This document shows, one piece after another, positions 18,234 to 50,199 of a stretch of 64,000 nt of DNA; the stretch's first letter is position 1; each line of letters starts with the position of its first letter. Source of the DNA: Helianthus annuus (Eukaryota > Streptophyta > Magnoliopsida > Asterales > Asteraceae); the NCBI RefSeq assembly GCF_002127325.2, contig NC_035447.2, positions 23,232,442 to 23,296,441 of the forward strand. The letters are read 5' to 3'. The notes under the pieces are model-generated. The model saw only the letters and a program-made list of their open reading frames with translations. It was not told the origin of the DNA and did no database searches. The position numbers and the translations under genes are program-made.

Positions 18234-18422
18234 GGTCAGAACTTCCGTTCAGCAGAGAGATGACGGCTCGACTTTTGGTGGGTCCCCTTTAGAGGATCTT
18301 TTAAATTTCAACAGCAGCGACTATCAATTTTATTGTTTCATCAGCATGCTGAGGGCTGCGCTTTTTCAAGCATATGCCTAAAGTATTATCCGGGGATTAG
18401 GTCAGTACTTCCATACAGCAGA
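18234..18422 (-). other. Paired copies of the shared copia 3' hairpin in Sire-1
   Basis: 23-nt copies at 18234-18256 and 18400-18422, 166 nt apart. On the plus strand each is GGTCA, a 4-nt arm, TTCC, a 4-nt arm, AGCAGA. Arms are GAAC/GTTC in one copy and GTAC/ATAC in the other. Both pair on the sense strand (the second using a G-U pair). Confidence 0.8.
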
Positions 18423-19235
18423 AGTCCTGGGATAATACCCCAGATATCACTGAGCATAAAGACCTAGTATCTCAGAATACGGGACCTTTCAAACAAGATT
18501 TCGGGGGTTACCCATATATCCAAGAATAGTTACCCACGAATCAAGCAAGTTTGAATTAGGTTTATATCTCGTTTCAACTTACTAAAAGTGTGAAAATCTA
18601 CTGACACATCCGCAGTAAGATTGTTTATCACATTTCAACTTTACATTTCTTTAGCGTGCCGTGATAGTCCACTGATGTACTATCATTTCCTCTTTTTACA
18701 ACGAAACTCATTTTTGAATTTTATCATGTTTTTGTCTTTTTCAAATTTTCTGATGTTTTTGGATTTTCTAAAAATTTCTTACTCCCCCTAAAATTCAAAT
18801 ACATCGAAAGAAAATTGAAAACAAACTGTACAGAAACTTGACAACTGACATCGAAACACATCAAATCGCCATTCACTAGGCATAAACAATCAGAACTCCC
18901 CCTATCACAAACCATTTTCTCATTTTAGATCTCAAAACACTTAAGTTTGTTTTAATCAAAATGATTTTTCTGGAAAATGAATTTGTGTTGATAAAAACCA
19001 CTTGTAGGTCTATCATTTTAAAAATGGGGATGTGGTTCATCATCTTGTCTATCTTTTACCCATATGTAGTAAATCAAGTACAACTTAATGTCCCTGATTT
19101 ACCATCTGCAATTTAGAATCACTGTACCACTTGTAAATGTAAATTCTTCAAGGTATAACTAAAAATACCACTTGTAGATCAAAAATACCACTTGTAGGAA
19201 TGTTACGTCTACATCACCATTTAACCAATCAGGAT

Positions 19236-19389
19236 GCCGATTCCTGCTTCGCACTTACCAACCTGGAAGCTCCGGCGTAGTCCTTCATCCGGCAAACATT
19301 AAACACATTTCAAAATCTTACAAACAAACTTTTCAAACACTAGAAAGATGCCGTTTCCTGATCCACGATATAAACTTGGGATCTCCGGC
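19236..19389 (-). other. Duplicated stem-loop downstream of the Sire-1 gag stop
   Basis: Copy 1 at 19350-19389 begins 15 nt after the stop and copy 2 is at 19236-19276. On the sense strand both have outer arms GCCG/CGGC. The inner arms are GATCC/GGATC in copy 1 and GCTTC/GAAGC in copy 2. Sire-2 has one copy at the same place. Confidence 0.65.
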
Positions 19390-19404
19390 ATAGTCCTTCA
19401 ACTA

Positions 19405-22400
19405 TCATGGGAAACAGACTTCCATCCAAGTCTTCTCAGACTTGATGGCTTTCAGCTCTTGAGCCGTAGGGTTGTATGTTGCCTTTTTCGTGGCATAAAA
19501 ATCTTTAACCCCCTTTGCTCTCCCACTCAGCATTTTCCCAAAAATCTTTTTAACATTCCCGTTGAATGTTTTCTCGACATCAAAATCTTTTTTCTTAATG
19601 TAAAACTGATTTGAAATCTCAGTTTTTCCCACTTTCTTCTTCACTTCCTCAAACTTCAATGATGGAAACTCCTCATCATTCACTGAGATCTTCTTTTCAG
19701 CCTGTGGGTCTTCTGGCTTTGTGGAACCAGATTCATTGCCGACATTCACTTCACCTTTCTTCGCAACCCACACCTGGTTGTCTTTTCCTTTCTTCTCATA
19801 TTTGTTCTTCTTTGAACACTCACCAACCTCAAATTTTGAATTCTCAAAAATTTTAGGTCTATTGGTTGGTGTGTCAACATCAACAACTTTCTCTTTCAAC
19901 TTCTGAGAAACTCCCTGTTTTAAGTTGGCACTTTTCGAGCAATTAATTGCAATATGACCAGCTTCATTGCATCAATAACAGGTTCTAGTCTCTCTTTGAT
20001 AACAAATATCAGCTCCATTCTTCTTTCTCTCAGCAAGAAACTCTTTATTAGACTGTCTCCAGAACGGTTTCTGTTGTTCCTCCTCTACACTTCCACCTGA
20101 CACAAATTCAGATTTTGTTTTAAAATTTTTCATATTTTTATCATTTTCTGGTGGAACAAAACCAAGACCTTTCTTTTTGTAGCTACGATTCTGGTTAGGT
20201 TTCTTTTGAAAACCAGAACCAGAATTGTTGCCTTTTTTCTTATTTAAACGTTGCTGAACTCTAGACGTGTATTTTTTAGATTTTTCAAAACTTTTCAAAA
20301 CTTTTAATTCTGGAATATTAATTTCTATTAGTTTGAAAGTTTTGTTTATTAGTTCCGTTTTAATACTCATTATTGGGAACTCTTTATTGTAATATAATTT
20401 GTCCGAACCATTCAAAGTATACACAACTTCGAATGTTTCATCATTCAAATCTGCCTTTGACAATAAAAATTCTTTACTATAAGACCGTTTATCCGATGAA
20501 TTTTGACTGTTGACTGACGACTTTGACTTTCCAGACCCAGATTTCGACTCAGACTCCTCATCAGTATCCAACACCTGATCGACCACCTTTTTGATTATTT
20601 CAGACTCATGATCAGTATCGGACGAGGTATACGTGACATCAATGTTATCTGGTAAAATGTCAGTTGTGTCGGTTTTAAGCTTTATATTGACTGCCTTTTC
20701 CAATAGCTCCTCATTTGGTCTCCTAGGTGAATAACCATCCCAAATCGGAGGTGGACATTTGTTGTAACTAACAGTCGATTTCTTACCACAGTCTTTCTTG
20801 TCTTTTAGCTTCTCATCTTTGAACGCTTCCATACCTGCAACAGTTGGGTAAATACGATCAATGAGATAATCAGAACTAGAATAACTTTGCAATAAGCGTC
20901 TAATTCTCTCATTCTCTATCTTTTCCGTCTCCAACTCTTGCTTCCACTTAGCACTCTCTTCAATGTAGAAGTTTATTGCTTTTTGTTTTGTCATTAAAAC
21001 TGCATTCAACATCGTCAATGCTTGCTCTCTTTCTGAGTTTGTCTTTTGAAGACCAGTTACTGTTTTGTTTAGAACATCATATGATTCTTTCACATAGTTG
21101 AGATTGAACAGTAACTGCTCCTTTTTCTTCTCGTACTCAGCTATGATGTCATTTTTAGCTGCACAATTCTTGCAAGCTTCCAAGCACTTCTCACACGGCT
21201 TGACGACTTCAACAATCTTCTCAACCTCGATTGTTTTAACAACTTCAACCACTTTTTCTACTTCAATCACCTTTTCTTCTTCTTTCACAACCTCGGTAAA
21301 CTTCTCAGTGACACTTTCAGCATTCTGAATATCACCTTCAGATTCAGCTGGTTGTTCTTTAGCAGCTCGTTTCTCCTTCAGTTTCTCCATTCTTTCTGCA
21401 AAATAAAAATGAAAACTTTCAGGAGACACATGAGTTTTTGCAATATTTATATGTTTTTCTTCCTCATCATCACTACTGCTGTGATCAGGTGATTGATCAA
21501 ACTGTACAGACTTATCAGAATCACCATCTGATACATCAGAATCAGACGACGTTTTATCAAAAACAACTTCCTTTTCTTGAACATTTTCATTTTTTACACT
21601 TTTATCAGAATTCTGTAAATCTTCATCTGAACCCTGTAAACTTTCATCTGAACTTTCTGACACTTCCCCAGAATTTTCTGAAAGTTTATCAGTACTATCT
21701 GAACTTTCAGATGACACAGATTTTTCATCTTCACTTTTCACAGTCTCTCCAATTGATTTCATCCAAGTAGCAAACAAATCTGGCTCTCGGACGATTTTGG
21801 CAATGAAGGCTTTGAACTCTCCCTCCTCATCCACAAACATATCCCAACTGCAACCTTCTGGTAGTTTCTCATCATCTTGATCAATAATGCGTGCTGCTGT
21901 GGCTTCAGATGATATGTAATCACTCCAGCTGAAATCTACCAAACATGCTCTCTTGGGATCTTCAATCTTTCTTCCATGAGCCTTCTGTGGTTCTTGAGAT
22001 TGACCAACTTGTTGATAGATAGCTTTGCGGTAGTAATCATCTTTCCCAAATGGATTTTGTGCTCCGCTAGCTTCTCTTCCTTTGCACTCCCGCTTGAAAT
22101 GGCCTTTCTCCCTGCATCGAAAACAAGTAACTTTAGATTTATCAAAACCTAAAGTAGATACATGAGCATCAAGAAAGTCAATTCTCCCGGTAATGGTTTT
22201 GAATTTCTCAGCTCGTCGAAGAACACTTGCGAGACACCATTTAATGTCCATGAGTTCCATTTCCTCAGCGTCTATTTGATCGTAATCTTCTTTGGTGAGC
22301 ATAGGATTTCCGATCCGACCAGCAACAAGACCTTCATAGGATAACAAAACTGAACCCAGAAGTGCCATGTGGTCTTTAGCAGTGTCTTCAGAGAAGCTTT

Positions 22401-22429
22401 GACCTTCTGGAAGATTAAGAGCTATGTTG
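19405..22429 (-). pseudogene. gag: Sire-1 gag, C-terminal three quarters
   Basis: Continues the frame of 33833-32870 across the Sire-2 insertion; counting bases with one TGTTG copy removed keeps the phase. It has a CCHC knuckle CFRCREKGHFKREC, a long acidic Ser/Asp-rich stretch, Val/Glu repeats (VEKVVEVVKTIEVEK), coiled-coil segments and a basic region. A second knuckle (CNEAGHIAINC) is preceded by UGA at 19974-19972 where an Arg CGA codon would fit. The frame then continues to UGA at 19407-19405. Total gag is about 1,330 codons. Apart from that stop and the insertion it is open. Gag would form particles; with no pol, this copy depends on others. Confidence 0.88.
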
Positions 22430-22854
22430 TGTTGATGCACGGAATGTCTGTTGACTGCGTCTACAAAAAGTCTGAAGTCAATATTGGTCAACAGGAGGTC
22501 AAATTGTAAATAGTGTGATAGATTGAAGTAGGATCGCTTATTTGTCATTAAACTTAGTGGACCGCTTTTGTGTCATTAATCTGGATCGCTTATGTGACAA
22601 AGGATCTGGATCGCTTATATGGCATGTCACATAAGCGACCCTGGAACTCTATAAATAGGAGGAGCGGTTCATTAGTTGTAACGATGTATGTGTGTGCTAC
22701 GGTGCTGAAACTCTGCCAAATTTTTATCAGAAAGCAATAGAAACGATCGGAATTGAAAGGATATGCTGTTGTAACTTCATATATGTTGATTCCGCCTTCA
22801 TACATGAAGATGAACTACCTTGACTGACTTTTAGGGTCATAGAACGGTCCAACA
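22430..22854 (+). repeat. Sire-2 5' LTR
   Basis: TGTTGATGCACGG to GGTCCAACA. TATA box TATAAATAGG at about 22650. An imperfect inverted repeat with arms TCGCTTATATG (22611-22621) and CACATAAGCGA (22628-22638) lies about 12 bp upstream of it. Other CGCTTATGTG-like half-sites occur further upstream. Confidence 0.96.
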
Positions 22855-22856
22855 AG

Positions 22857-22868
22857 TGGTATCAGAGC
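22857..22868 (+). other. Primer binding site of Sire-2
   Basis: TGGTATCAGAGC, complementary to the 3' end of initiator tRNA-Met, two bases after the LTR. Confidence 0.93.
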
Positions 22869-23077
22869 TCAGGACGAGGAGTTCATACTACTACAGCATA
22901 GATCTGCAAAATCTCTCTTTTCTACTCACTTTCTCTCATACTTTTTCAATTTCTAGTGGTTCCAACGGTCAAAATTGTCTGAAATTCGAGTATAACGTGT
23001 AAAATACACTAATTACAAACCCTAGAAAGAATCAGGTGAAAATACGGACTAAAATTGGTAAAAACAGGCTAAAAACA

Positions 23078-23425
23078 ATGGATCGCGTTTTCGAACATTC
23101 AGGACCGCTTATCTGACATAATTGGTTTGGATCGCTCGAAATTTACCCTTAGGATCGCTCTTTGTAACCAATTTGGATCGCTTTTTCGAACATCATTACT
23201 GATTAGGATCGCTCGAACGTATACTACTTGGACCGCTTGAACGATCACATTGTGAACCGCTCGAATGATCATACTCGGATCGCTAATTCAAACAAATTGT
23301 AGTTCGCTCGAACTTACACTTTGTGGTCCGCTCGAAAGGACATTGTTGTCTGGACCGCGTATTCGGACATTTATTGATCCGCTTTTCTGTCAAGCTGTAC
23401 AAACAGGATCGCTTTTGTGGTTCTG
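23078..23425 (+). repeat. Sire-2 leader array of CGCT-core half-sites (~25 nt period)
   Basis: About 14 copies of GG(A/T)(T/C)CGCT or close variants, often followed by CGAA or TATG. They start near 23080, 23103, 23129, 23152, 23175, 23207, 23230, 23256, 23277, 23303, 23326, 23352, 23377 and 23406. Spacing is 21-32 nt, mostly 23-26. Sequence between sites is not conserved. Confidence 0.85.
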
Positions 23426-23483
23426 TTATTTTTTTAAATCAAAGCTTTTCTAAGTGTTGTCTGATTTTGCAGGTACGTTCACG

Positions 23484-25871
23484 ATGGATGATATGTTCTT
23501 GAATCCATTTAGCGATATGTACGCATTCACGGGAAGTTCAGGAAACAACGATTCGACATCGAACAATACGAACGAGAATCAACAAAAAGAGAAAAAGAAA
23601 GAAGCTTGGGAGTCCGAAAGTGCATTTGGAACGTTTAACAAACCTCCTAAGTTGATGGCTATAGAAGACTACAGCAGGTGGGCAACAAAGTTCGAAGATT
23701 GGCTAATGGCATTCGCTTTCCCCAGTTGGAAGAGTATGAAAAACGGTTATGCTGAGGGAAAGAAAAATGGTGAAGCTTTAAGAAATTCTGAAGAAATTGA
23801 TATCTTTGTAGCTGAACAAAAGTGTGTAGCTCTGTTGTTTCAATCAGTTCGGGAGGATATTATCTCATTGATAGATTATACCAATGCTAAAGACTTATGG
23901 GAAAAACTTGAAAAGAAGTGTCTTGGAAGCAAAGAGATTGTAAAGAACAAAACAAAGTTGCTTAGGAAAGAATTTGACATGTTTGGTTGTCTAAAAAATG
24001 AATCGGTTTGTAAAATGATTGAACGATTTGGTCATCTGAAATTGGAGCTTGCACGACACAAGATCACGTATTCTGATGAAGAAATTGTAGATAAATTGTT
24101 TGATTTATTACCGGATGAAGTTGATTGGAGATATTACGCATTGATGTTGAAGAACACTATTTCTCCGAAAAATCTGACTCCAGATGTGGTGATTGAAAGA
24201 CTTGAAAGCCATGAGCTAGAGTTGAAGAAAACATACAAAGTTAATCACTCATCTTATCAGCAAAATCTGGATTTGTACTATCCGAAGAGTTTGATGCCGA
24301 AAGCTACTTCACCAAAAACTGCATTTTCTGCTGAGAATGTCACTTCAGCAAACAAAGAAAGTCAAAGCAGTTCAAGCAGCGGAAGTCACAGTGGTTATCA
24401 CAGTGGATCTACGTCTTCTGCAAGTCGTTCTGATGCGAAGTTTTCCTGCAATATCGCAATAGATTTGAAGAACGCACAGAATTTTGATGAAGAGTCAGCC
24501 AAGCAACAAATGGTTTTTCTGGCGTCTGTGCTAGAATCTTATGAAGGATTGGTGGCTGGTAAGATCGGGAATACAAATCTGACGAAGGAAGATTACGATC
24601 AGATAGACCCCGAAGAAATGGAACTGATCGATATTCGTTGGGCGATGGCAAGTGCAGTTCGACGTGCACAACGCTTCATGGAGATTACTGGGAGGAAAAC
24701 GATCGGTGGTCCATCTACAAAGTTGGGGTTCGATAAATCCAAAGTGACGTGCTTCAAATGTAAGCAGAAGGGTCACTTCAAGCGTGAATGTAGAAACGCG
24801 TACGTTGATGAGTCAGAGAATCCGTTTCATGACGATTATTACAAAAAGGCAATCTACCATCAAAATAAATCCGAGCCGCCCAGATTGAAGCAACAGGAAG
24901 AAAATAGAGACAAATCGAGGGCATTAGCTGTGATTTATGACGATGAGAGGTACGATTGGAGTAAAGAAGTTCTACCAGAAGATGATACGGTGGGTTACGC
25001 ATTCATGGCAAGTCATGATGAACCTATTCCGTGGAAGGATGATCGTACGGAGGAACAGAAGTATAAATATCGGAAGATGGTTGCTGAAGCCAAAATTATC
25101 AGACTTTCTAGTGTCTTTCTGGAAGCTAGAAGAGCAAACAGATGGGATCCAGACAGAGAATGTTATCTTGATAGATATGGGAACATCGCGGTTGATGACA
25201 AAAAGATAGATATAGAAGCCATCATTCAGGAGTACAAAGAAGATGATGAATATTGGCAGCACAAGTGGTGGGGAACACCAACATCAAAGATGATTGAAGA
25301 AGAGAAAGAGAGAAAGGAGAAAGAAGAGAAAGAGAGAAAGGAGAAAGAAGTGAAAGAAATGAAAGAGAAAGAAGAACTTGAGAAAGTAAAGCAAGTTGAT
25401 ACCGAGTTGATCGATACTACACAGGAGTTGACAGCTGAGAACCTGGGAAATATGGCTGACAAAGTGCTAGCTGCAAAAGCACTTGAGGTAGATTCTGTTT
25501 CTGTTACTGAGTCAAAGGATCAGGTCAGTCAAAACAAGTCAACGAATGTGTCAGGTAACAAAGTTGGGGGTAATGCTGATTGCAAAAGTTGCACCAAAGA
25601 ATGCAATTTTTGTGGCACTGTCACGTACCTAAACGGTGAGAAAATCATTAATCTAACAACTAAGGTTAGAAAGCTTGAGGATCAGATTCTTGAACGTGAC
25701 ACAAAATTAAAAGCTTCAACTGAACAAGTAAATGAATTAACGACTGAATCTAAGAAAATTAAAGCTGAAAATGACAAGGTATTTCTTGAGAATCGACAAA
25801 TTTCTGAAAAATTTGAAAAATTGAAAAGCGTTGTCAAAGATAGTGATGATCGAAATGGAAAAAACATCTAA
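23484..25871 (+). pseudogene. gag: Sire-2 gag, N-terminal part
   Basis: Start chosen at 23484 (MDDMFLNPFSD). It has an N-terminal copia gag region (PPKLMAIEDYSRWATKFEDW), a helical gag domain to about residue 250, and a knuckle CFKCKQKGHFKREC near residue 430. A Lys/Glu-rich coiled region and a second Cys-rich segment (CKSCTKECNFCG) follow. The frame shifts near 25850, where the downstream gag frame (25831-27246) takes over, so one base was gained or lost. The domain plan matches Sire-1 gag closely. Gag packages element RNA. Confidence 0.88.
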
Positions 25872-27246
25872 AGAAAATGAACATCTAAGAGTTGTTTTGA
25901 GATTAAAAGAAGAATCAATTAACAAACAACTGGATGAAATTGCTAAACTAAAACTTAAAGTTCAAGAAATTGAAATTGAAAATGAAAGGATTCAGTTGAA
26001 ATTAAACAGCTATAGCTCAGCTAGCTTTGTTTTGCAGCATATTGTTCCCAAACCTATAGGGAAAAACAAAGCTGGTGAGGATGTGTTTTCTGATGGAACG
26101 GGTGTAGGGTTTCACAAAGTTCCACCGCCAATTTTAGACAACTACACGAAAAAGCAGTCTAGTTTGGTGGAAATCGAGGAAGAAAGTGATGTTACACTTC
26201 CTGAGAACATTGATGTCACGTTCACGTCTTCCAATGAAGAGGGTGTCCAAAATGATGTGGTGAAAAGTGTGGTAGACAAAGTGCTTAAACCGGATTGTGA
26301 CACTTCTGAGGAGGATGGGTGTTTTCTAGATAAATACATTCCGAAACAAAAGTCCAAAAACAACTTACATGATGAATCTGATCTTGTCATGTACAAGATG
26401 TCGGGATCGGATAAGTTGTTTTCGGATTCTGAGTTTCCATTAGAGAATGTTAATTTGAACAAATTGACAAATGTTTTCAAACTGGTCGAAGTCGAGTTGT
26501 CAGCAGTGAACGATCTGAGTCGAAAGAAAGAGAGGGTTTACAACAAGAAAACTGTTTATCCACCACGTTTTTACAATAACAACAGAAACAACTGGTCGGG
26601 TGGTTATCAGGGGGGTAAACCATATCAGAAAAGAAATGTTTCAAACAAGAGGTTTGTCGAAAAGAAAAAGTTTGTGAACAGTTCAAGTTCACTTGCTGAT
26701 GAAGAAAAGGAAATTTTTACAAAATCAAACAAAGAATTTTTTGAGAAGAGAGCTTCACAGGCTCAGTCTGAAGGCACGAGTCGGGTAGCTGATACTCGTA
26801 CTTGTTTTAGATGTGAACAGGTTGGTCATATTGCACGAAAGTGTACATATGTGAAGCCTAAGACTGAAGCTGTGAAGGTTCAACAAAAGAAAGTTGATGT
26901 GAAGGGTAAAACGCCGATGTATGTTGAGAAGAAAGTTGTTGGGAAGAAAAATGTTCAAATTGACAACTTGACTGTAAAAGCTGAACCCGTAAAGAAGTTG
27001 GTAAATCAAAATGATAAATTTTATAAGAGGGTTGCAGTAGCTCAACAGGTGTGGAAACCTAAAATTGAACCTAAAGTTGAGAAGAAAGTTTCAACTTCTG
27101 AGGTGAAAAAGGCTGAAGAATCAATTACGGTTGATTATGATGCACAATTTCCACCTCTTAAGTCTAAGAATTTCAAAACTCAAATTGCTAAAGTCACGGT
27201 TACACCTAAGGCTGATGAGACCTGGGTGGACACCATGTTTGACTAA
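25831..27246 (+). pseudogene. gag: Sire-2 gag, C-terminal part
   Basis: Continuation of gag in the +1 frame: coiled coil (MEKTSKENEHLRVVLRLKEE), a Pro/Asn region and a second knuckle CFRCEQVGHIARKC. The Lys-rich tail ends in WVDTMFD and UAA at 27244-27246. Sire-1 gag ends at the homologous place (WMEVCFP, then UGA). Protease lies in the same frame about 115 nt on, but UGA at 27253 and another UAA near 27313 intervene. Confidence 0.86.
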
Positions 27247-27258
27247 ACAGGTTGAATT

Positions 27259-27293
27259 GCCGGAGCTTCCTGGATCGTGAAGCATGAATCGGC
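27259..27293 (+). other. Stem-loop 12 nt after the Sire-2 gag stop
   Basis: Arms GCCG/CGGC outside and GCTTC/GAAGC inside, separated by a ~9-nt loop and an internal bulge. The same structure follows the Sire-1 gag stop. Confidence 0.6.
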
Positions 27294-27317
27294 ATCGTTC
27301 TTGAAGTTGTTTTAAAT

Positions 27318-29028: not shown

Positions 29029-30833
29029 AAGTTCCAAGCGAAGTGATGCCGCGAACTCTTTCTTATCATCCAGAGGAGTTGATCATAGGAGAATTGCAAT
29101 CGGGCGTTAGGACGAGACGTCAAATTGACCAGGGCTTAACATGTTTTTATTCTACAGTAGCACCTTTACAAACTGAATTTTCATTAAGTTGTTTTATCTC
29201 GCAGGTCGAACCGAGAACTTACAAAGAGGCGCTTACTGAAGACTCTTGGGTCATAGCAATGCAAGAAGAGTTAGGTCAGTTTGAGAAGTTAGGTGTTTGG
29301 AAGTTAGTGGATTTGCCGGAGGGTCAACGAAAAATCAATACAAAATGGGTTTTTAAATGTAAGCGGGACGATAGAGGAGTGGTTGTAAGAAACAAAGCTT
29401 GACTCGTTGTTCAGGGCTTTAGTCAACAGGAGGGGATTGATTTTACCGAAGTCTATGCTCCTGTCGCACGAATAGAGGCTATCAGAATTTTCCTAGCATT
29501 TGCGTCTTGGAAGAATTTCAAAGTATTTCAGTTAGATGTTAAATCAGCGTTTCTTTATGGGAAGGTCAAAGAGGAGGTTTATGTTGGTAAGCCGCCGGGC
29601 TTTACTGATCCATTCCACAAGAACAAAGTTTATTTGCTGGACAAAGCGTTGTATGGTCTACATCAGGCGCCGAGAGCCTGGTACGAGACTTTGTCTCAAC
29701 ACCTACTCGCTAACCAGTTCATACGTGGAAAAGTGGATGCCACTCTCTTCACTAAAGTCGTTGATGGTCGTCTTCTGATAGTACAAATTTATGTAGACGA
29801 TATTATTTTTGGGTCAACGAATGAGAAATTGTGCAAAGATTTCGAACAGGTGATGAAGCAGAAATTTGAAATGTCTTCAATGGGGGAGATGAAATTCTTT
29901 CTGGGTTTACAAGTTGAACAACTTCCTGAGGGAATTTTCATTCATCAAACGAAGTATGTGCATGATATTCTGGAGAAATTTGGAATGTCAAGTTCTACTC
30001 TAGCTGCTACCCCACTTGCGACTAATCATGGGATTCACCCAGATCTCACCGGAGACAGGGTTGATGAGACACTTTATCGATCCATGATAGGTTCTTTGAT
30101 GTACCTAACTGCTTCACGTCCTGACATCATGTACCCAACGTACCTCGCAGCAAGATTTCAGTCTAAACCGAGAGAATCGCACATGATTATTGTCAAGAGG
30201 ATATTACGTTACCTGAAAGGTACTCCGTCATTGGGGTTATGGTATCCTAGAAAAGGCGATTTTACACTCGAAGGGTTTTCCGATTCAGATTTCGGATGCT
30301 GCAAAATCAACGCGAAATCAACAACTGCAGGATGCCAGTTCTTTGGTCCGAGATTTGTTACTTGGCAGTGTAAGAAACAAACATCTGTGGCGCTATCTAC
30401 ATGTGAAGCGGAGTATGTTTCTGCTAGCAGTTGCTGCTCTCAGATCCTGTGGATACAGCAACAGATGCGCGACTACGGTTTGCAGTTTCTTAACACACCT
30501 CTGTTTGTTGATAATGAGGCCGCAATTAACATTACTAAAAATCCAGTACATCACGCTAAAACTAAACATATCGAGATTCGTCATCACTTTATTCGCGATT
30601 GCTTCGAGAAAAAGTTGATACGAATTGAGAAAATCCACACTGACGAACAAAAAGCTGATTTGCATACCAAAGCTTTTGATAAAAATCGGTTTCAATATTT
30701 GTTAAAACTTAATGGTATGAAATTGCTTTCGGTGTCAGATGGGGTTGTGAGCGTTGATGAGAGTACTGTTGCGGATGAAGATGAGAAACAATCTGCGATG
30801 GTTTGTCGATTTTTTACGTGTTTTGGTATTTAG
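28956..30833 (+). pseudogene. pol: Sire-2 reverse transcriptase and RNase H
   Basis: Begins in frame after the shift near 28915. WVIAMQEELGQFEKLGVW opens the RT domain. UGA at 29400-29402 stands where Arg is expected in KARLVVQGF. The frame then stays open to 30833, with YVDDIIFGS (the SIRE-type RT signature) near 29790. RNase H motifs include FSDSDFGCC (first catalytic Asp), CEAEYVSAS and the conserved HHAKTKHIEIRHHFIRD. It ends CFGI followed by UAG. Confidence 0.9.
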
Positions 30834-32427
30834 GGGGAGATAGATAGTTGTACATAGTTTATTTTGAGAAAAATACAAAAACAGTAAAAAATGCAAAAAT
30901 ACAAAAACATGATAAAATTGAAAAAGAGCTTGTGTATATAGGGAAAATGATAGTACATCAGCTAGACAATTACAGTATGCTAAAGATTTGGAAAGACAAA
31001 ATGAGTTAAACAGTCTCACTAACGATGTGTCGATAGGTTTTCGTACATTTAGTAGATTTATGCGGGATATAAACCTAAAATTTCAAACTGGTGAAATTCG
31101 TGGGGAACACTACTTGGATATATAGGTAACCCCTGAAATCTCGTTTGAAAGGTCTCGTATTCTGATATACTAGGTGGTTATACTCTATGATGTCTGGGGT
31201 ATTATTTCGGGACTTCTGCTGAACGGTAGTTCTGACCTAGTCCTTGGCTAATACTTTATCCAAAATGCTTGAAATATAGCATGAAGCCCTCAGCTGATTA
31301 GACAATAAAATTGATAATCAGTTGTTGTAGCTGAAAAGATCCTCTAAAGGGGACACACTGCAAAGTCGAAGCTGATATCTCTCTGCTGAACGGTAGTTCT
31401 GACCTGAGATCCCTCATTTATCGCATTTAACCCCTAATTTATGTACAGACATCATTGTAGTATTCTTGCCTGTAAGACTGAATATTGGGATTCTGGATAC
31501 GGGAGTATATTCAAGAGGTGGGATACATGAATTGATCTAAGTTCTTAAAACACTTAAACGATATCCTGAATAGATTGAAGTTTGTGTGAAAATTTAAGAT
31601 GGATCAGTATATCGACAATCGAGGTGAATTGTTTAAGTCTGAGTATGTATTGTAGCTTAACGGTACTTGTAATCTGTCTGAAAAGCTGATATGATTCCTT
31701 GACACGCTCACCAAAAATAAGTTTGTAAATAGTTTATTTTCTGCAATTTAAGTTTTCTGTTATTTCATTTCTTAGTTTAGATCATTTTAAAATCCAAAAA
31801 GATTTTATTTCTGCTTTATTTTAGACAAACCAGAGTAGAAAGTTGATTGTTGGATGCTAGTAAGATGAAGCAGATGCAGGAGATTCTGAGCTGAAGATTG
31901 AGGAGAGCTTACATTGTTGGAATTGTGTTTGTTTTCAAAGTCAAAACAAGTTCATTAAATTGATACTTGTCATTTTCAAAAAGAAAATTGAAAAATGATT
32001 TTACTAAATCAGTATGATTCGTCAACAAATCAACCAGAGTCATTAAATTGAACTTGGTAGATTAATCAAGTATTCAGGGTCATTAACTTGAACTTGAAAA
32101 CTTGAGTGGATTTCTAAAAGCTGATTGAATTTGTGTTTATTGTTTGAAAAGATAGATTGTAATGTTATTGGTTGAGTAACAGGTTTGGACATTATTTCCC
32201 AATGGAGACAAATTGTAAAAGCTTGAACCAGATATTTCAAGATTCCAGCATACTGAGAGGGGGAGTCTGTGAAAGTGGGAGTCTGGATCAACAGCTATTG
32301 GGAAGATAGAAGATAGAGACAGGTGTTAATGCTGAAACCTGTGAAGAATGCTTGAGAGGATAGACAGAGTTTGTGAAAAGACAAGGACTGAAGACTATGG
32401 AACTGAAGACTAATAAAGACTACGTCA
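30834..32427 (+). other. Sire-2 non-coding 3' region
   Basis: About 1.6 kb between RNase H and the purine tract, with no coding frame of note and no ORF3. 31110-31540 aligns with 18110-18540 of Sire-1 (opposite strand), including the paired hairpins at 31215-31237 and 31382-31404. Confidence 0.75.
31215..31404 (+). other. Paired copies of the shared copia 3' hairpin in Sire-2
   Basis: 23-nt copies at 31215-31237 and 31382-31404, 167 nt apart. Each reads TCTGCT, GAAC, GGTA, GTTC, TGACC, giving a 4-bp stem with a GGTA loop. Confidence 0.82.
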
Positions 32428-32444
32428 ACATCCAAGGGGGAGTC
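32428..32444 (+). other. Polypurine tract of Sire-2
   Basis: AACATCCAAGGGGGAGTC region directly before the 3' LTR start TGTTGATG. Confidence 0.88.
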
Positions 32445-32869
32445 TGTTGATGCACGAAATGTCTGTTGACTGCGTCTACAAAAAGTCTGAAGTCAATATT
32501 GGTCAACAGGAGGTCAAATTGTAAATAGTGTGATAGATTGAAGTAGGATCGCTTATTTGTCATTAAACTTAGTGGACCGCTTTTGTGTCATTAATCTGGA
32601 TCGCTTATGTGACAAAGGATCTGGATCGCTTATATGGCATGTCACATAAGCGACCCTGGAACTCTATAAATAGGAGGAGCGGTTCATTAGTTGTAACGAT
32701 GTATGTGTGTGCTACGGTGCTGAAACTCTGCCAAATTTTTATCAGAAAGCAATAGAAACGATCGGAATTGAAAGGATATGCTGTTGTAACTTCATATATG
32801 TTGATTCCGCCTTCATACATGAAGATGAACTACCTTGACTGACTTTTAGGGTCATAGAACGGTCCAACA
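32445..32869 (+). repeat. Sire-2 3' LTR
   Basis: 425 bp, one difference from 22430-22854 (position 12). Followed by TGTTG, the duplicated target. Confidence 0.96.
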
Positions 32870-33833
32870 TGTTGCATTGAATTATGTATCCATTTCCGGT
32901 TTTTGTACTCTGAGACTGAAAACTCGTGTTAGTCTCTTTCGGATTCACACTCGGAAACGATGAAAACCCACTGCTACTCTTGTTTGAACTTTGATCAGCT
33001 TTCTTAGATGAATCACCAACACTGAATGTAGTTTGAATCTTTGGACTTCTTTCAGACTCAGTAACTGGAACACTACCCCGGTAGTACATCTTCACGTCCT
33101 GTTGACCACTCGGACTGTTCATTCTCGCGATCTTTTGCTGTTCAAGATCCTGACTTTCTATTTTCTCAATGAACTGTGAAATAGTCAGCCCGTCATACAT
33201 ACCAGTATTCTTTAAAATCATCAAATACGTTCCCCACTCTTTCTGAGGTAACGCGTCTGCCAATTTATCCACCCATTCCTCACGACCTTTTTCAACTCCC
33301 AACATCGATAGTGATCGCACCAAGTGACAGTATCTCTCGATTAACTTTTTAGTATCCTCTCCCGGCAAACTGCTAAATAGATCGAACTCTTTTTTTAATA
33401 AAGCTTTCTTGCTCTTGATCATGTTTTCACTTCCCTCAAATTTAACCCTAAGAGCATCCCATATCGACTTAGCAGTCTTGTCATGCTGTAACAGGATGAA
33501 TATATCTTCCTTTATTGCCTGCTGTAACAAACTGATCATCATTTTCTCAGCTCTATACATTGCTCGTTCTTGATCAGTAAACTCGGATATCTCTTTAACA
33601 ACTTGCAAATCTGTTCGAGGCAATGTGTACTTTTTCAATATGCACTCCCACGATCTGAGATGATTTGCCTGAACCCAGTTTTCAAACCGATCCTTCCACC
33701 CATAATACTCCTCTATGCTCATCAATCTAGGGGGCTTTTGAGTTGTTCCCGTCTCGTTTTCTAAATTCATTGCTTGAGCAATTGCGGCTGGAGTAGTCGA
33801 TGTAGCAAAAGCGTTGTAGAACTCGGAATCCAT
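32870..33833 (-). pseudogene. gag: Sire-1 gag, N-terminal quarter (cut by Sire-2)
   Basis: Start MDSEFYNAFATST at 33833. The copia gag core follows (PPRLMSIEEYYGWKDRFENW), with Leu/Lys-rich helices similar in order to Sire-2 gag (SKKALLKKEFDLFSSLPGE). The frame is interrupted at 32870 by Sire-2 and continues at 22424. The residues after the junction in the raw ORF are LTR sequence, not gag. Confidence 0.88.
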
Positions 33834-33859
33834 ATTGACGTGGCACGGTTTTCAAGGAA

Positions 33860-34240
33860 GATGACAGAAAAGCGAACCAGAAAGGTACACACAAGCGAAC
33901 CAGACAAAGTCCTTTGGAGCGGACCCTAACTTTGTCACAAACGCGAACCAACAATGTACTTTGGAGCGGACCTAATTTGGTCACAAAAGCGAACTGACCA
34001 TGTACTTTGGAGCGGACCGAGATGATCAAATGAACGATCCTGATATGTACTCTTGAGCGAACCAGAAATGAGTTTGGAGCGAACCAAACTACTAATTTCG
34101 AGCGAACCAGGGAAAAATCGGTACGGATGAGCGAACCAACTTACTAAACTGGAGCGAACCAGACTTAGACGTGTACAAATAAGCGAACCAGACTGTGATC
34201 TAAGAGCGGATCTCGATGACGTCAGTACGAGCGAACCATA
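33860..34240 (-). repeat. Sire-1 leader array of CGCT-core half-sites (~23 nt period)
   Basis: About 16 copies of AGCGAACC or AGCGGACC (plus-strand reading; sense GGTTCGCT/GGTCCGCT). They start near 33871, 33893, 33918, 33941, 33965, 33988, 34011, 34032, 34055, 34078, 34100, 34129, 34152, 34181, 34204 and 34229. Most spacings are 22-25 nt. It lies between primer site and gag. Confidence 0.88.
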
Positions 34241-34439
34241 TACCGAACATGATTTGACCTGTTTTTAAGCTGTATTTCTGCCTGAAACTTTCAAGGGTTT
34301 GCCTTTGTATGATAATACACAATCTGTGAGCTTTTGAACGAAAATTGACCGTGAAATCTCCCGGAAATGAGAAAAGAAGGTGTAGAAGTGAGAAAAATCG
34401 ATGAGAAACAGCTACAATCTGCAGAAAACCTCCTCCCAA

Positions 34440-34451
34440 GCTCTGATACCA
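34440..34451 (-). other. Primer binding site of Sire-1
   Basis: Minus strand TGGTATCAGAGC, initiator tRNA-Met type, two bases from the LTR end. Confidence 0.93.
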
Positions 34452-34453
34452 CT

Positions 34454-34911
34454 TGTAGGATCGTTTGCTGACCCGAACGAGTCGTTCAGAGGTTGTCTCT
34501 TGTGTTTCAGATGCGGAATAATAAGAAATGCAAGTAGATATAGCTTGTTCTTCCTCCTAACTGCTTGTTTTATTGATTTGAAACGTTTTACAGCTCAATC
34601 CTCACACCGGCAGAGCTTCGGCGTGGAATCCAACAATTACGTTATGAGGTCCGCTCAAACTACCCTATATATAGGTAGTTGGGTCCGCTTATGTGTCACA
34701 TGACCATAAGAGCGGACCAGCTTAGTCCACATAAGCGGACCGGCATGCACCTATGAGCGAACCAAAATCCTAATGACCATATAAGCGAACTTAGCATATA
34801 AAACCTATACAGACTCCTGTTTTCTCGTATTACGTGCCCTATGCTATACATTATGACATAAGACCTGATCCTAGACACCTAGACGCAATCAACAGATGTA
34901 GTGCACTAACA
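34454..34911 (-). repeat. Sire-1 5' LTR
   Basis: 458 bp; eight by-eye differences from 16762-17219 (about 1.7%). Followed by TAATT, the duplicated target. Confidence 0.95.
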
Positions 34912-38100: not shown

Positions 38101-38557
38101 TGTAGATCCCAAAACGTATCCGGATCACAGTGGTTGGTTGTTTTAGTCCAAAACACCTATTGATTAAGTGTTTGAACTATGAATAGTCAAGAAATATCAA
38201 GAATGAAGATGAAGGTGAAGCTAATGGATTGAGGAATACAACTAGTGTTGTATTGAATCCAAATAGAAAGATATAGCAATAAACAACCTTGGAAATCAGA
38301 TCAAAGCACAATATGAATGTAAACAACACTTGATTCCACCAAGAGCCAAAAGCTTGAATGTGTTACAATGCTTGGGGTATATATACTAGTTTCCTGACTA
38401 GCCAGCAAATTTATAAATTTGCTGGAATCTTAACTACACTAGGTCAGGAATATAACTTCTAGATAATTACAAAACAACCCCCTAAACATTCAAAATGCAT
38501 ACAAACTACAATTAAACTAATCCAGTACAAGTACCAACGATCTCACATGCTCTAACA
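38101..38557 (-). repeat. Sire-3 3' LTR
   Basis: 457 bp, identical by eye to 50944-51400. Minus strand starts TGTTAGAGCATG and ends GGATCTACA. Confidence 0.96.
38376..38425 (-). promoter_or_regulatory. Sire-3 LTR core promoter: palindrome plus TATA box
   Basis: A perfect 24-bp palindrome at 38402-38425 (arms CCAGCAAAT and ATTTGCTGG around TTATAA). It is followed on the minus strand, after 16 nt, by TATATATACC (38385-38376). The same arrangement is at 51219-51268. Confidence 0.75.
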
Positions 38558-38573
38558 ATATCCCCCCTAGATC
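38558..38573 (-). other. Polypurine tract of Sire-3
   Basis: Minus strand ATCTAGGGGGGATAT directly before TGTTAGAGC. Confidence 0.9.
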
Positions 38574-38590
38574 GTTGCGTGATTGTCTTC

Positions 38591-41325
38591 TCATTCTTCC
38601 GTGGTAACCGCTGGATCTTCCGTAGTTTGCTTTTCTGGCTCGATTGGATTTTCTTCCACAACGATCGTTTCTGGTGGTGTGACAATCTCCGTTGGTGCTA
38701 CCGGAGGTTCCTGATTAACATTGGCTTCACTTGATTTTTGATCCTCCTTAGCGGCCTCATATGTGGATGAGGCCGGAGGTGTTGGTGTGGCTTGAGAGTC
38801 GGTGGTGGTTGGATCTGCAGTTGAAGTAGCGCTTCCTTCCACTGTTGTCTCATGTTTCTTTGTCTTTCGAGCTTCTCTCTTTTTCTGTTCTTTCTCTTTT
38901 CGCTTTTCTATTTTGTCTACCATGTCGAGCATATCTCTTTTTAATTTCCAGGCACGCTCCACTGCTCGCTGAAACAATGCTGCCTCTTCAAGATTTGCAT
39001 TTCCAGCTCCGACGTTGATTCGACTTGCATTCAGCATGGTGAGATCCGAGAGCCCGAACTGAAATACGTCCATAGGATCCAGAATTCGTATATCGACATT
39101 GTCGTTTGACCTGATTACAGCTTCACCGGTTTGACTATCATAAAACCATTTCTTGAAATCCTTAAGGGCCACAGGGATTTCTTCCGGAAGCTTGACTCTG
39201 GTGACAACTTTAGCAGGGTTAACAACCCACGTCACCTTTCCCTTGCCTGTTACTGGATCGAAGGTAGTTTTTGACACTCGGCGTCTTGGGCGCTGCGGGG
39301 CATGATTCGGAAAATTCTTGTCACATTCTTTCGTAATTAGACGTTCAAAATCTCTTCCAATGCCTCTGTCACCATGGTTTAGCAGATTCAGACGCCCAAG
39401 CTCTCTTAAATCCCACCTTGGGAGCGAGAAGAGATCAAATCCTGTTGCAAAATACTGTATCACACCACCCCGTCTCTTCACTACAAACATGCCTCTGAGG
39501 TTGTCATACATCCAGCTGATGATTTTCTCAGTTTCCTCAGATTTTACGACCTTTATCACTTGATGAAGATCAGGAAGCTTTTCTCGTTCTTTTCTAAACC
39601 ACTCGGGGTGCTCTGGAGTAAACGTTTTACCGTCTTCTTGCTCATACAGGACTTCATCCTCCAGTCCCCATTCAATGAAGGTCGGTGGCATTATTTCTCG
39701 ATCAGCCTCCTCTTCTTCGCTTTCGTTTCCCTCCAATGCCTTGTCAACAGATTCTAATCTCTTTTTCTTAGCTTCGGCTTCCTTTTCTTTGCGAGCCGTT
39801 TCTTCCTGAATGAAAGCTTCAAAATCGAAGATTTCATCGAATGTAAACATCGGCTCAATGTTCGCTTTTTCGCATATTCCCCGCATCATCCTGTAGAGCT
39901 TCTCCAAGCTGGCTTGCTGAAATCTGACAAACTTGGCTTGCTTGGCCATGTATGCCGTCATTTCTTTGTTCTTCTTTCTCTGATCTTTGAGTTTCTCTCT
40001 CAGGATGTTTGTATCATTGACTTGATTCTTTAATAGACAAATTTCTTTCGCCACAGAAGGCCCGGTGTCTTTTATCAACCGATCATACAAGTCTTGAAAT
40101 GGACGTAGCCTTTGTGGAACAACAGGTGGCTTTGAGATTCTTGTTGGTTTGACTGGGGAAACTTTTGATGTGCCTTCATCTGCTTCTGCCTCATCTGGAT
40201 CAACAAGAATTTGATCAACGAAATCATTGAGGTTTTGAGTTTCTTCAGGAACTACTTTGGGCATCTCGGAAGAAGATATTTCTTTACGTTTCAGGCTCTT
40301 TTCTCTTTTCTCTTTCTCCTGCATTGCATGAATGGCTTTCAGATCTTGAATATGTTTACGTTGCTCTTCAGTTTGTGCCGCCTTGATTGCAGAACTCATT
40401 AAACGTTCAGAACCTCCTGTTGTCTTTTTCTTCTTAGGAGGTTCTTCTACTGCAGGTTGCTTGCCCTTTTGTTTTCCTTTACTACTTTCTTCTTTGGCGG
40501 CTGCTTCGGCCTGTGCTTGTGCAGCTTTCTGTTGTTTAGCTTTGACACCTTCTTTGTATTTCTGATATGCAGCTTTAACAATGGGTAGTCTCTCAGCTCT
40601 ATACATCCAGTCGTGCAACAGAACCCATTCGTTGGTTTTGATTTCTGTATATTGTCTGCTTGTAGGCACGTGAAACTTGTAGGTATTTCCGTCATTGGGG
40701 AGGTCTTTCTGTTGATCATTTATGAGCATTTGAATAAATCTCGGGTACATCGCCCAAGTCGGTCCATTTGCATTCTCTCTCATATAATTGAATATTAATC
40801 CAGAGAGATTGAACTTTTGATTAGTACATAAGCTCAGCATAGCTGCAGACCACTCCAGATTCAAAACCCGCCTTTTCGATGAGCTAGGCTCATCGAGATC
40901 ACGTGAACAATAAACCTCCAATCCCGGGTAAGACCTCCCCTCTTGATTTCTTTCTTGTTTCTGAAATCCCCAGCGTATCCCATTCCTCTAAAACCGTCGA
41001 GAATATCATCTTGACTGAGACTTTGCGGTTCATCACTGTTGTCTTTAAGCTTCAGAACTTGACGTATCCTTTCCTCTGTCACTTCCACTCTTTTGTTGCG
41101 CACAGTTGAAGAGATTCCCGGTTTGTTGTTTATAGACTCCAGCTTCACGTTCTCCCAGAATTCTTGAATGTGAAGGGGATAGACAGCAACTGAGGTCTCC
41201 ACCGCGTATCCGATCCTGCTTTTACGTACCCATCTGGTTACGTCTTCGAAGTCGGTTGGAACTAGATCAAGATTTATACTCTGATTATGCTTGAGGGTTT
41301 TATCCCATTCCAGTACTTTCACCAT
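38591..41325 (-). CDS. Sire-3 ORF3: accessory protein of unknown function (one frameshift)
   Basis: Start chosen at the ATG at 41325 (MVKVLEWDKTLKHNQ), one base after a splice acceptor. The first ~155 codons (to 40861) and the next 776-codon frame (40921-38591) are one protein: VHVISMSLAHRKGGF in one frame leads into LNLEWSAAMLSLCTNQKF in the other, so a small indel lies near 40865-40880. An N-terminal globular region is followed by Lys/Glu-rich helices with a basic cluster (EEPPKKKKTTGG, possible nuclear signal), more coiled coil, and an acidic, Pro/Thr-rich tail. There are no membrane segments, so it does not look like an envelope protein. It sits where SIRE elements carry their extra ORF. 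I do not know its function. Confidence 0.7.
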
Positions 41326-41326
41326 G

Positions 41327-42186
41327 CTGCACAGAAAACGATGCAAGTTAGAATAGAATTTTACAAAAGATATGTACAAGAAAAAAAAATTGAATATATA
41401 ACAACTTCGCTGCCAGATCAGATATTTTCTTCGCTAATGTTGGCCATAGACACAGATTACCGGATAGATAAGTTAAATCCGCTAGCGAATTTAACGAAAA
41501 CATGGTTTTGACACGGAACTGATTTTGTCAGCGGAGATCACGATCTATCTCGCCATCCGGGCGGATTAGATCAAATGACTCGGTGCTTGAACTCGCGTTC
41601 AAGACTTGATATCTTCGCTGACTTCGCCAACACATCTGATCTCGGTAACTATCGACAAATTCGCTATGTTCGCTGGTGGATCAGTCATGATTTCAAGTGA
41701 ATCTTCGCTAGCGAACTTAGCGAAGACATCGTTTCATTACCGGAAATGGTTGATCAGCGAAGATAGCGATTTAGATCACTATCCGAGCGAATTGGATCGC
41801 TCGCTGATCGCTCGAACTCGCGTTCGAGACTTTTGGAGTTCCCTTAAATTCGCTATCATCGCTGTCACCATATTAAATTCGCTGTGTTCATGATTTTCTT
41901 ATAAAACCCTTTTCAAAACCCATGACAGTTTATGACCGATTGATTTCTTTTAAGACCGTTTTTGCTTACACTACTCAAAACAAACTCAAATGATAACAAC
42001 AATGACTGATACGATTAGGAACTTGATAAATAATTTTTAATCTTAACATCCGATTCAACAAGTAATCCCCAACAAATAACCCAAGACCTTCAAACAAACC
42101 CTTAACACAATGATATATACCATGAACAGAGATTTAAACAAATAATCATCAAATCAAAGACCTATAAACCGAACAAGCAATCATAC
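41327..42186 (-). other. Candidate 860-nt intron in the 5' leader of ORF3
   Basis: Minus strand donor CATCAG|GTATGATTG at 42187/42186 and acceptor TTTTCTGTGCAG|C at 41327/41326, with the ORF3 ATG following at once. The upstream exon would be about 100 nt. Confidence 0.55.
41400..41890. repeat. Cluster of TTCGCT/AGCGAA half-sites within the ORF3 leader intron
   Basis: About eight TTCGCT and five AGCGAA words in 490 bp, several in inverted pairs (for example TTCGCTAGCGAA near 41705). Spacing is irregular. Confidence 0.75.
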
Positions 42187-42322
42187 CTGATGTTCTTTGA
42201 TTGGAAGGAACCTTGTGTTGAAGTTTTTATGTTGATTAACTTATAAAGAAATGAAAGTGGAGGGAGTTTCGGCGATGTAATGTAGAAGAAGAAGTAAAAT
42301 TTTGAAAAATGACGGTTAAAAA

Positions 42323-42375
42323 GGTATATATATGTACGGTCAAAATGGTAACCAGCGAACTTATATGTTCGCTGG
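42323..42375 (-). promoter_or_regulatory. Candidate internal promoter for ORF3
   Basis: A 24-bp inverted repeat at 42352-42375 (arms CCAGCGAAC and GTTCGCTGG, spacer 6 nt) is followed after 19 nt by TATATATACC (42332-42323). A CT-rich leader leads to the donor site. The layout copies the LTR promoter of the same element. Confidence 0.6.
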
Positions 42376-43738
42376 TATCTTAATTTCGCCGGCCCATTTT
42401 TAATATCAAATGTTTTTGATTTTGCGAGTTGATTTCAAACTTTCTCGAAAAAAAACGTGCCCATTTTTGTTTTAAAAAAATTTATTTCAGAATATCCACA
42501 GTAATGCTAAAATTTGGGCCATTTTGACTCCGAACTTTAAATATCTTGCTCTGCGAGGATTCATTTAACTTAGAATTTCCTGATATGTCCGACACTTACC
42601 GAACTTACCTGCAGAGGATCATACTACCAACACTTGCCACATTCTTTATATATTATTACTATTATATTACTAACCAGGGCACAAGAAAAACTGTCAGTAT
42701 GTTTGTCCGCTTAAATCCATGCATCCTTCTTTCAACGTACCTTCGGAGAGCGTGTTTTATCATGTTTTTGGTAATTTTGACAAGTCTTCGATGGCCCCCA
42801 CACAAGCTATTGAAAATAGAATCATTACGCCCTCGTGAGTCCCACATCAGGACATACCCCCGCGATCAAGGTATGCACAAAGATTCCTCATAACGGGTGA
42901 GTATATTGGATTCATTCTCTTCAACGATAGAACGGAGATCAGGTCTGTACTTTCGTACAACAGAGATTCCAGAAACTATCGAGGGTTAAGATAGATGGTT
43001 CGGCGAACAGGTCAGTACTACCGTACAGCAGAGTTGCCTACTGATCTATCAGAGAATTTGGCCAAAGATGGCACTTATTATGGATTTTGGCCAATAATGG
43101 CGCTTATTATACAGGGTTTGGCCTCTTTTTTTTTTTTTTTTTTAAGGCACTTATTAATAAGAGAATATCATAGCATCGCGTCTAGGTCAGTACCACCGTA
43201 CAGCAGAAGAGCAACTATGATATCCTCCGAATGACATACCAATATAAAGACCCGAAATCTCAGACTTTGGCAATCCGTCAACGCAAGATTCAAGACCATT
43301 AAGCCATATGCCGCAACGTGTTACCCACTGAGGTACGTAATGCCTGAGAAAAGCCAGAATTCTTGTGTAGATATTATGTTCGGCTCCCTACCAGCAGTTT
43401 ACTCGTCGGTGTTGCTGAATCTACCGACACGTCGTTGCTTGGTACCCTGATTGTATATTGTATTCTGTTCAAAGAGATGACAAAGTGTTAGCAATTTTCT
43501 ATCACTTCTTCTAACAGGAGTCTGACATAAGCATCTGTTTCAAGGATTTTCTGAATATCCCCCCTAAAATTTTCATTTTCGTAAGTCCATTAGCCCGAAA
43601 ATAAAATTTTAACAAGAAAATCTTTTTGGTGGGCGACATTTTCAATACTAGTTTTATTTTCAACAGGCAAAAGCTTTATTATATTGATTTTAATTAAAAG
43701 TGTTTTTTTTTTTTTTTTTTTTTTAATCAACACAAGAT
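42376..43738 (-). other. Sire-3 non-coding region between RNase H and ORF3 promoter
   Basis: About 1.36 kb without a coding frame. It holds three copies of the shared hairpin, two runs of T (about 43123-43143 and 43703-43724) and a short duplicated phrase around GGCACTTATTA near 43070-43160. Confidence 0.65.
42942..43207 (-). other. Three copies of the shared copia 3' hairpin in Sire-3
   Basis: 23-nt copies at 42942-42964, 43010-43032 and 43185-43207 (68 and 175 nt apart). The arms are GTAC/GTAC in all three. Sense-strand loops are GAAA, GGTA and GGTG. Confidence 0.8.
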
Positions 43739-50185: not shown

Positions 50186-50199
50186 TTTTCTTTGTTTTT

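Follow-up and report, generated by a model that had tools for sequence, protein, structure and literature searches.

A predicted kilobase RNA rod displaying hairpin modules in the post-pol linker of Sirevirus-type copia elements from sunflower

We analyzed a 64,000-nucleotide stretch of the Helianthus annuus genome (the window: contig NC_035447.2, positions 23,232,442 to 23,296,441, forward strand), which contains three long terminal repeat (LTR) retrotransposons, Sire-1, Sire-2, and Sire-3. In each of them, the linker downstream of pol is predicted to fold into a long RNA rod that displays small hairpin modules. Window self-comparison and open reading frame (ORF) searches showed that Sire-2 (+) is nested inside Sire-1 (-) and that Sire-3 (-) is separate (Table 1). 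A copia-type reverse transcriptase (RT; RVT_2) and the order gag-integrase-RT were found in Sire-2 and Sire-3, and zinc-knuckle gag-type ORFs in all three elements. The primer-binding site (PBS) TATCAGAGC follows the 5' LTR in all three. The sense polypurine tract (PPT) octamer AGGGGGAG occurs at 30832, 32258, and 32435 in Sire-2 and at 18896, 18782, 17747, 17333, and 17222 in Sire-1; the terminal copy is about 10 nt before the 3' LTR (32435, with the LTR from 32445, in Sire-2; 17222, with the LTR end at 17219, in Sire-1). Sire-3 has no AGGGGGAG on its own strand and carries a variant G-run before its 3' LTR. The PBS in all three elements and the multiple PPTs of Sire-1 and Sire-2 fit published Sirevirus hallmarks (PMC2829016). 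Because the exact PPT octamer is lacking on its strand, Sire-3 is classed just as a Sirevirus-like copia element. These assignments rest on PBS, PPT, ORF order, and RVT_2.

A tblastn search with the integrase and RT ORFs of Sire-2 and Sire-3 found no integrase or RT in the DNA of Sire-1 itself and returned gag-type matches only. Sire-1 therefore seems non-autonomous, even though its LTRs share 97.7% identity. Sire-2 has a second CCHC zinc knuckle (25825-27246, +) in an ORF distinct from its 805-aa gag ORF, and Sire-1 DNA is related to both of these ORFs. No ORF of at least 120 aa lies between the rod and the 3' LTR in Sire-1 or Sire-2. In Sire-3, the ORFs at 38591-41433 (-) encode a candidate env-position protein; the 798-aa ORF had no Pfam match at E<=0.01, and the 190-aa ORF matched PF20167 below the cut-off of that family.

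An earlier note on this DNA had described seven copies of a 23-nt hairpin in the same sense orientation. We found all seven at the positions given (seven matches to TCTGCTGWACGGWAGTWCTGACC with at most three mismatches in the whole window), and 100 dinucleotide shuffles of the window gave a mean of 0.00 matches. Every hairpin is on the sense strand of its own element, and the arms and loops agree with those reported (Table 1). The pair spacings of 166, 167, and 175 nt also hold, and Sire-3 has an additional spacing of 68 nt. The claim that the hairpins lie downstream of the coding regions fails for Sire-3, in which they are located between pol, ending at 43739, and the ORFs at 41433-38591. The 4-bp hairpin itself is real, but it is merely the tip of a far longer structure, consisting of outer stems and a rod of 0.9 to 1.25 kb, that the note had not seen. 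No module was present in the three LTRs tested, and a pattern search of the window found none in the further LTR-like repeat regions flanking the elements.

We then searched the genome from which the window comes (3.01 Gb, 334 contigs). A looser module pattern gave 27,584 matches (13,643 + 13,941), spread over contigs C1-C17, and its reversed control gave 0; a compensated variant pattern gave 8,170 (4,068 + 4,102). From 80 genome loci and the window we collected 117 distinct copies with at most six mismatches to the canonical form. Sixty of the loci were fetched by exact patterns, the other 20 were picked from such matches, and some loci overlap. The module is a 24-nt unit with a 4x4 internal loop (UCUG/ACCU), a C-G pair, a U.U mismatch, a 4-bp stem, and a tetraloop that is mostly of the GNRA type (mainly GGAA or GAAA; GGUA and GGUG also occur). 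Ten of the 24 positions (1 to 4, which are UCUG, and 7, 9, 16, 20, 21, and 23) are unchanged in the 117 copies, in part because of how the loci were fetched. The stem varies in a paired manner: positions 8/17 are A/U in 66 copies and U/A in 51, pair 10-15 is C-G, U.G, or U-A, and pair 7-18 switches between G-C and A-U (13 loci). A third form of the second module, found in 13 loci, has AUAC/GUAU arms, one inserted base, and mostly a G-C pair replacing the U.U mismatch.

Among the 80 loci, 45 have one canonical module, 34 have two, and one has four. In the 13 variant loci there is an extra second module of the variant form, and in family 2 just one module, at the rod tip. Among the matches listed, variant modules also occur in tandem, 91 to 92 nt apart (e.g., G000:C1:17645441-17645555), which suggests duplicated second modules. 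A purine before the module was found in 103 matches genome-wide, and the 30 that were fetched are mostly mutated copies of known families. A pattern scan of viral contigs gave six single matches, including two pairs with identical flanks; we read these as chance, as the number is near the estimate for a pattern of such specificity. One of these chance-level matches (L031:1921-1943) pairs outside the module in its single-sequence minimum free energy (MFE) fold.

The modules cap longer stems. There are ten flank groups among the copies, at least seven of which were counted as distinct stems; two singleton groups are altered members of larger groups, and families 2, 3, and 6 share a few module-adjacent bases. 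In the window, the left and right flanks of a module pair better with each other than when swapped, with 18 of 5040 assignments equally good. Taken individually, the flanks of four of the seven modules beat shuffles at 3% or better.

These stems sit on a much larger structure. In MFE predictions for the three window elements, the whole post-pol linker folds into one rod, in which 155 to 233 base pairs enclose all modules. The rod is about 0.9 kb long in Sire-1 and Sire-2 and about 1.25 kb in Sire-3. Elsewhere in the genome, 152 to 192 enclosing pairs were predicted in six family-2 loci, and 150, 164, and 200 in the linkers L044, L070, and L078, respectively. RNAalifold applied to 48 linkers placed the rod arms at 30926-31196 and 31446-31709. 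The MFE nesting depth was 237, 178, 259, 179, and 200 in five of six linkers, above all 40 shuffles of each (means, 87 to 107; maximum, 174), and it was 59 to 125 in eight control windows taken from gag, pol, env-position, and post-rod DNA.

Structure of this kind might concern host RNA silencing, with the rod serving as protection, decoy, or Dicer substrate, which would either shield the RNA or be a source of small RNAs. In maize Copia elements, small RNAs gather on regions with structure, mostly within the LTRs (PMC10760457), and a pararetroviral leader has been proposed to hinder silencing complexes (PMC5902531). Silencing leaves unexplained, however, why one 24-nt module recurs atop stems of differing sequence, and the ten invariant module positions, even if partly a product of pattern fetching, also count against it. 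We consider this explanation quite improbable.

The rod is bracketed by PPTs in two of the elements, as AGGGGGAG copies are present on both of its sides in Sire-2 and Sire-1. This would agree with a role in reverse transcription or at the 3' end, in which the rod governs plus-strand priming, strand transfer, or RNA 3' processing. Multiple PPTs are a known Sirevirus trait (PMC2829016). Sire-3, however, has the rod but lacks AGGGGGAG on its strand, and the modules lie about 1 kb (Sire-1 and Sire-2) or 4.4 kb (Sire-3) from the 3' LTR. Such a role is improbable in our judgment.

To assess covariation, we used a null model in which the substitutions of each column were kept and placed on random branches of a FastTree tree (our own implementation, with 30 null alignments, rather than R-scape). 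Of 271 testable pairs in the structure predicted from Sire-2 only, eight covaried at E<=0.05 in the alignment of 48 linkers, with 98 to 100% standard pairs: 30942-31698, 30944-31696, 31033-31612, 31065-31566, 31124-31134, 31222-31231, 31388-31399, and 31389-31398. Four of them span 501 to 756 nt. Structures from four other copies gave 6, 8, 9, and 4 covarying pairs. Six slid versions of the Sire-2 structure gave 0 to 3 pairs by E-value, none with at least 80% standard pairs; across 30 slid controls the range was again 0 to 3, and only one control reached 80% standard pairs, with one pair (L066, +3). The earlier note had proposed a conserved, covarying structure, and had said that a lack of significant covariation in a larger alignment would refute it. 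The inner pair 8-17, the switches at 10-15 and 7-18, and the long-range rod pairs bear the proposal out.

When all 353,220 column pairs were tested, 12 reached E<=0.05. The inner pair of module a (31222-31231) accounts for one. The remaining 11 combine six columns, linked with one another, of the variant second module; of these 11, two are true pairs and five are neither in nor near the structure. Misalignment was rejected as the source of the block at 31388-31419, which is a real variant module with a one-base insertion (13 loci), and the cross pairs among its columns are linked changes, perhaps from few events. In family 2 (20 linkers, 93% mean identity), 95.5% of the cells of 180 enclosing pairs are formed, and 13 of the 180 pairs changed on both sides, compared with 3 to 9 in slid versions. 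The projected Sire-2 rod is modestly above letter shuffles (0.884 of cells paired, maximum in shuffles 0.859; 68 two-sided pairs, maximum 65). Pairs outside the rod and module a had no surplus of two-sided changes (21, mean 22.9). Of the 20 column pairs ranked highest by mutual information with average product correction, five fall in the Sire-2 structure, a result superseded by the tree-based null.

Could common descent suffice, with the rod a functionless hitch-hiking duplication or the remnant of an inverted duplication or ORF? The mispair counts suggest young copies, so that the genome counts would mostly reflect amplification, and part of the covariation may stem from few events. For the same reason, we rejected the mispair counts at pair 8-17 (33, 25, and 84 versus 27,584 matches) as proof of selection, since young copies would give the same; no G-C or C-G was found at this pair among the 84 listed mispairs. 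The covariation nevertheless exceeds the tree-based null, and the rod architecture is found in linkers that, apart from the modules, can hardly be aligned. The linkers of Sire-2 and Sire-3 share only module-sized matches and one further 25-nt stretch, yet they have like folds. The family-2 linker L006 aligns with the start of the Sire-2 rod over 93 columns at 73%. Two stretches of about 80 nt are common to Sire-3, L044, L070, and L078 (78 to 81% in L044 and L070) and are, by coordinates, the neck arms below the head. No other DNA shared by Sire-1 and Sire-2 aligns over nearly as great a length as the linker (75.7% over 961 columns), which speaks against descent alone, though selection or recombination could be behind this similarity. 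The linkers have no coding signal, so a coding remnant was rejected, and the main module spacings (163 to 172 nt) fall in all three frames; the remnants of a lost ORF that the earlier note had considered as a refutation are thus not what we see. Descent alone is very unlikely.

The strand evidence points to RNA. Where the reference has a Watson-Crick pair, G.U exceeded A.C in eight of eight tests, and a G.U excess is expected for sense RNA. Across the 80 loci, a sense PPT octamer was found in 77 and an RT match in 33, and no locus had a module on the opposite strand. A DNA-level element, with the modules as palindromic transcription-factor boxes akin to the repeated motifs (RMs) of Sireviruses, is disfavored and highly improbable. 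RMs are symmetric and repeated and are found upstream of ENV (PMC2829016). In contrast, the module flanks are asymmetric, the orientation is sense in 80 of 80 loci, and G.U is tolerated more than A.C. The three LTRs contain no module and the linkers no CGG-CCG palindrome (one CGGACCG occurs, in the Sire-1 LTR only), and the rod would be left unexplained.

We conclude that, in the sense transcript of these Sirevirus-type copia elements, the linker downstream of pol appears to be an RNA domain that acts in cis. It covaries, it has a strand sense, its architecture is common to linkers that barely align, and it is retained where no integrase or RT can be detected. Retention in Sire-1 argues that the rod acts in cis, and elements that would need proteins in trans also include 21 of the 80 loci, which have gag-type ORFs without RT within about 1.5 kb (two pairs among the 21 overlap). 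These 21 loci suggest a large non-autonomous family resembling Sire-1 (16753-34911, -). A role in env expression is argued against because the rod is kept without a downstream ORF in Sire-1 and Sire-2. The internal loop and tetraloop are conserved while the rod sequence varies with its pairing kept, and for this reason we infer protein docking.

We suggest that the rod and modules are a genomic-RNA recognition element, most likely a packaging signal for Gag, although we hold this tentatively and put its chances at slightly under even. In this scenario, the linker of about 0.9 kb (1.25 kb in Sire-3) would fold into a rod whose tip or branched head displays one to three modules. The rod stem would hold the modules exposed and folded, and a protein, most likely the element's own zinc-knuckle Gag, would dock on the modules and thereby mark the full-length genomic RNA. 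Packaging by Gag is favored by the zinc-knuckle gag-type ORFs in all three elements and by analogy with the leader of cauliflower mosaic virus (CaMV), in which a packaging signal exposed on the uppermost section of a large stem-loop binds the coat protein (PMC5902531). The pregenomic RNA leaders of CaMV and rice tungro bacilliform virus (RTBV) likewise belong to plant reverse-transcribing elements and have the signal at the top of a large stem-loop, the RTBV signal being putative (PMC5902531). Those leaders differ in being 5', upstream of long ORFs, with upstream ORFs and shunting (PMC5902531). The rod follows pol and precedes the 3' LTR or further ORFs, and it has one to three GNRA-type modules; the comparison drawn here is one of architecture.

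Several observations weigh against this proposal. All evidence comes from one genome, and the module conservation is partly by construction, most loci having been fetched by exact pattern. The known packaging signals of related elements lie in the 5' region. The outer stems of 18234, 31382, and 42942 alone are no better than shuffles (514, 253, and 154 of 1000 as good), and the nesting depth of L044 (140) is within its shuffles (maximum, 157). Pairs 31388-31399 and 31389-31398 share one block of linked changes. The comparison of Sire-3 with L078 is weak, with 3 compensatory, 19 one-sided, and 19 broken pairs and 1 compensatory pair in each slid version. The MFE z-score of the Sire-2 linker is modest (-2.4). 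Because -4.3 was reached in a gag/pol control window, energy by itself lacks specificity, and it was dropped as the sole criterion. That control, at 25500-26446 (+) in Sire-2, folds far better than its shuffles and forms no long rod.

The earlier note had also named dimerization, RNA export, and 3' processing as possible roles. Dimerization by loop-loop contact is disfavored, as the loops GGAA, GAAA, GGUA, and GGUG are not self-complementary. The main rival to packaging, though an unlikely one, is an export element, in which a host export factor would be brought to unspliced RNA by the rod and modules, as by a retroviral constitutive transport element (CTE) or Rev response element (RRE). The position of the linker 3' of pol is that of a CTE, and the long stem, branched head, and repeated internal-loop sites resemble CTE/RRE architecture. 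Retention in a pol-less element fits export equally well. CTEs and RREs are cis-acting structured RNAs, CTEs need no accessory protein of viral origin, and several export elements have complex folds with multiple stems (PMC11379458). On the other side, no spliced RNA is on record for these elements, and none of the papers listed in a literature search on plant retrotransposons and CTEs has a title that describes a plant CTE. The Rfam 15 covariance models, the sole look for NXF1 or Rev-type sites, had no match to rod or modules or elsewhere in the window at E<=1.

The earlier note knew of no described element like this one, and our searches agree: besides Rfam, nothing alike appeared in literature searches, which covered open text and top-ranked results rather than subscription papers or supplements, so a prior mention is possible. 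The exact module strings did not occur in a literature text search. Sirevirus linkers have been described as highly divergent save for PPTs, an inverted repeat, and palindromic boxes (PMC2829016). The RMs resemble the modules in being repeated short dyads, partly in the linker before ENV, but they are symmetric palindromes with a CGG-CCG core in 12 of the 13 listed, present in at least eight copies and abundant in LTRs (Bousios et al. 2010; PMC2829016); the modules are asymmetric, number one to three, and are restricted to the linker in the window. The PPT-flanking inverted repeat is also a structured non-coding element of the same linker, but unlike the rod it brackets the terminal PPT with arms of about 28 nt (PMC2829016).

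Table 1. Positions of rods, modules, and element features in the window
Feature	Position	Strand	Remarks
Sire-1 rod	17861..18767	-	155 pairs enclose both modules, 143 at probability >=0.5
Sire-2 rod	30864..31775	+	MFE, 210 pairs enclose both modules, 139 at probability >=0.5; innermost 31196-31446, head between
Sire-3 rod	42421..43671	-	233 pairs enclose three modules, 199 at probability >=0.5; innermost 43229-42917
Sire-1 module a	18400..18422	-	GUAU-GGAA-GUAC; inner-stem probability 0.17 in single-sequence ensemble
Sire-1 module b	18234..18256	-	GAAC-GGAA-GUUC
Sire-2 module a	31215..31237	+	GAAC-GGUA-GUUC; caps outer stem
Sire-2 module b	31382..31404	+	GAAC-GGUA-GUUC; second modules in 13 related loci are AUAC/GUAU
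Sire-3 module a	43185..43207	-	GUAC-GGUG-GUAC; outer stem GAUAUCAUAG/CUAUGAUAUU
Sire-3 module b	43010..43032	-	GUAC-GGUA-GUAC
Sire-3 module c	42942..42964	-	GUAC-GAAA-GUAC; U-A in place of U.U mismatch
Sire-1 5' LTR	34443..34911	-	
Sire-1 3' LTR	16753..17219	-	97.7% to 5' LTR
Sire-1 gag, 5' part (Retrotran_gag_2)	32742..33851	-	
Sire-1 gag-type ORFs past Sire-2 insertion (zf-CCHC)	19405..22429	-	
Sire-2 5' LTR	22430..22857	+	PBS GGTATCAGAGC starts at 22858
Sire-2 3' LTR	32445..32872	+	99.5% to 5' LTR
Sire-2 RT ORF (RVT_2)	29403..30833	+	stop directly 5' of rod
Sire-3 5' LTR	50944..51401	-	100% to 3' LTR
Sire-3 3' LTR	38101..38558	-	
Sire-3 gag (Retrotran_gag_2, zinc knuckle)	47117..50242	-	
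Sire-3 RT ORF	43739..45601	-	
Sire-3 env-position ORFs, 798 aa + 190 aa (stop to stop)	38591..41433	-	downstream of rod

Two more LTR-like repeat pairs bracket the region (10142-11327/62816-64000 and 12694-13773/54794-55880), and RVT_1-type (gypsy-like) pol ORFs are present at 14808-16448 and 59710-62778.

Which RNA is packaged by LTR retrotransposons other than BARE is described as little known (PMC3735527). Our model, to which we give an even chance, is that the 3' linker of plant Sireviruses holds a rod on the kilobase scale that represents a new class of RNA domain in retroelements. Its head would bear one to three GNRA-type docking modules; it would be conserved across lineages of dissimilar linkers and kept by pol-less elements, and its modules number in the tens of thousands in a single genome. 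As a tag on genomic RNA, used for either packaging or export, it would be the first 3' handle of this kind described in a plant LTR retrotransposon. With a module defined on a covarying rod, there would be an RNA handle that can be tested and a marker for comparing related plant genomes, and this handle could explain the trans-mobilization of pol-less elements.

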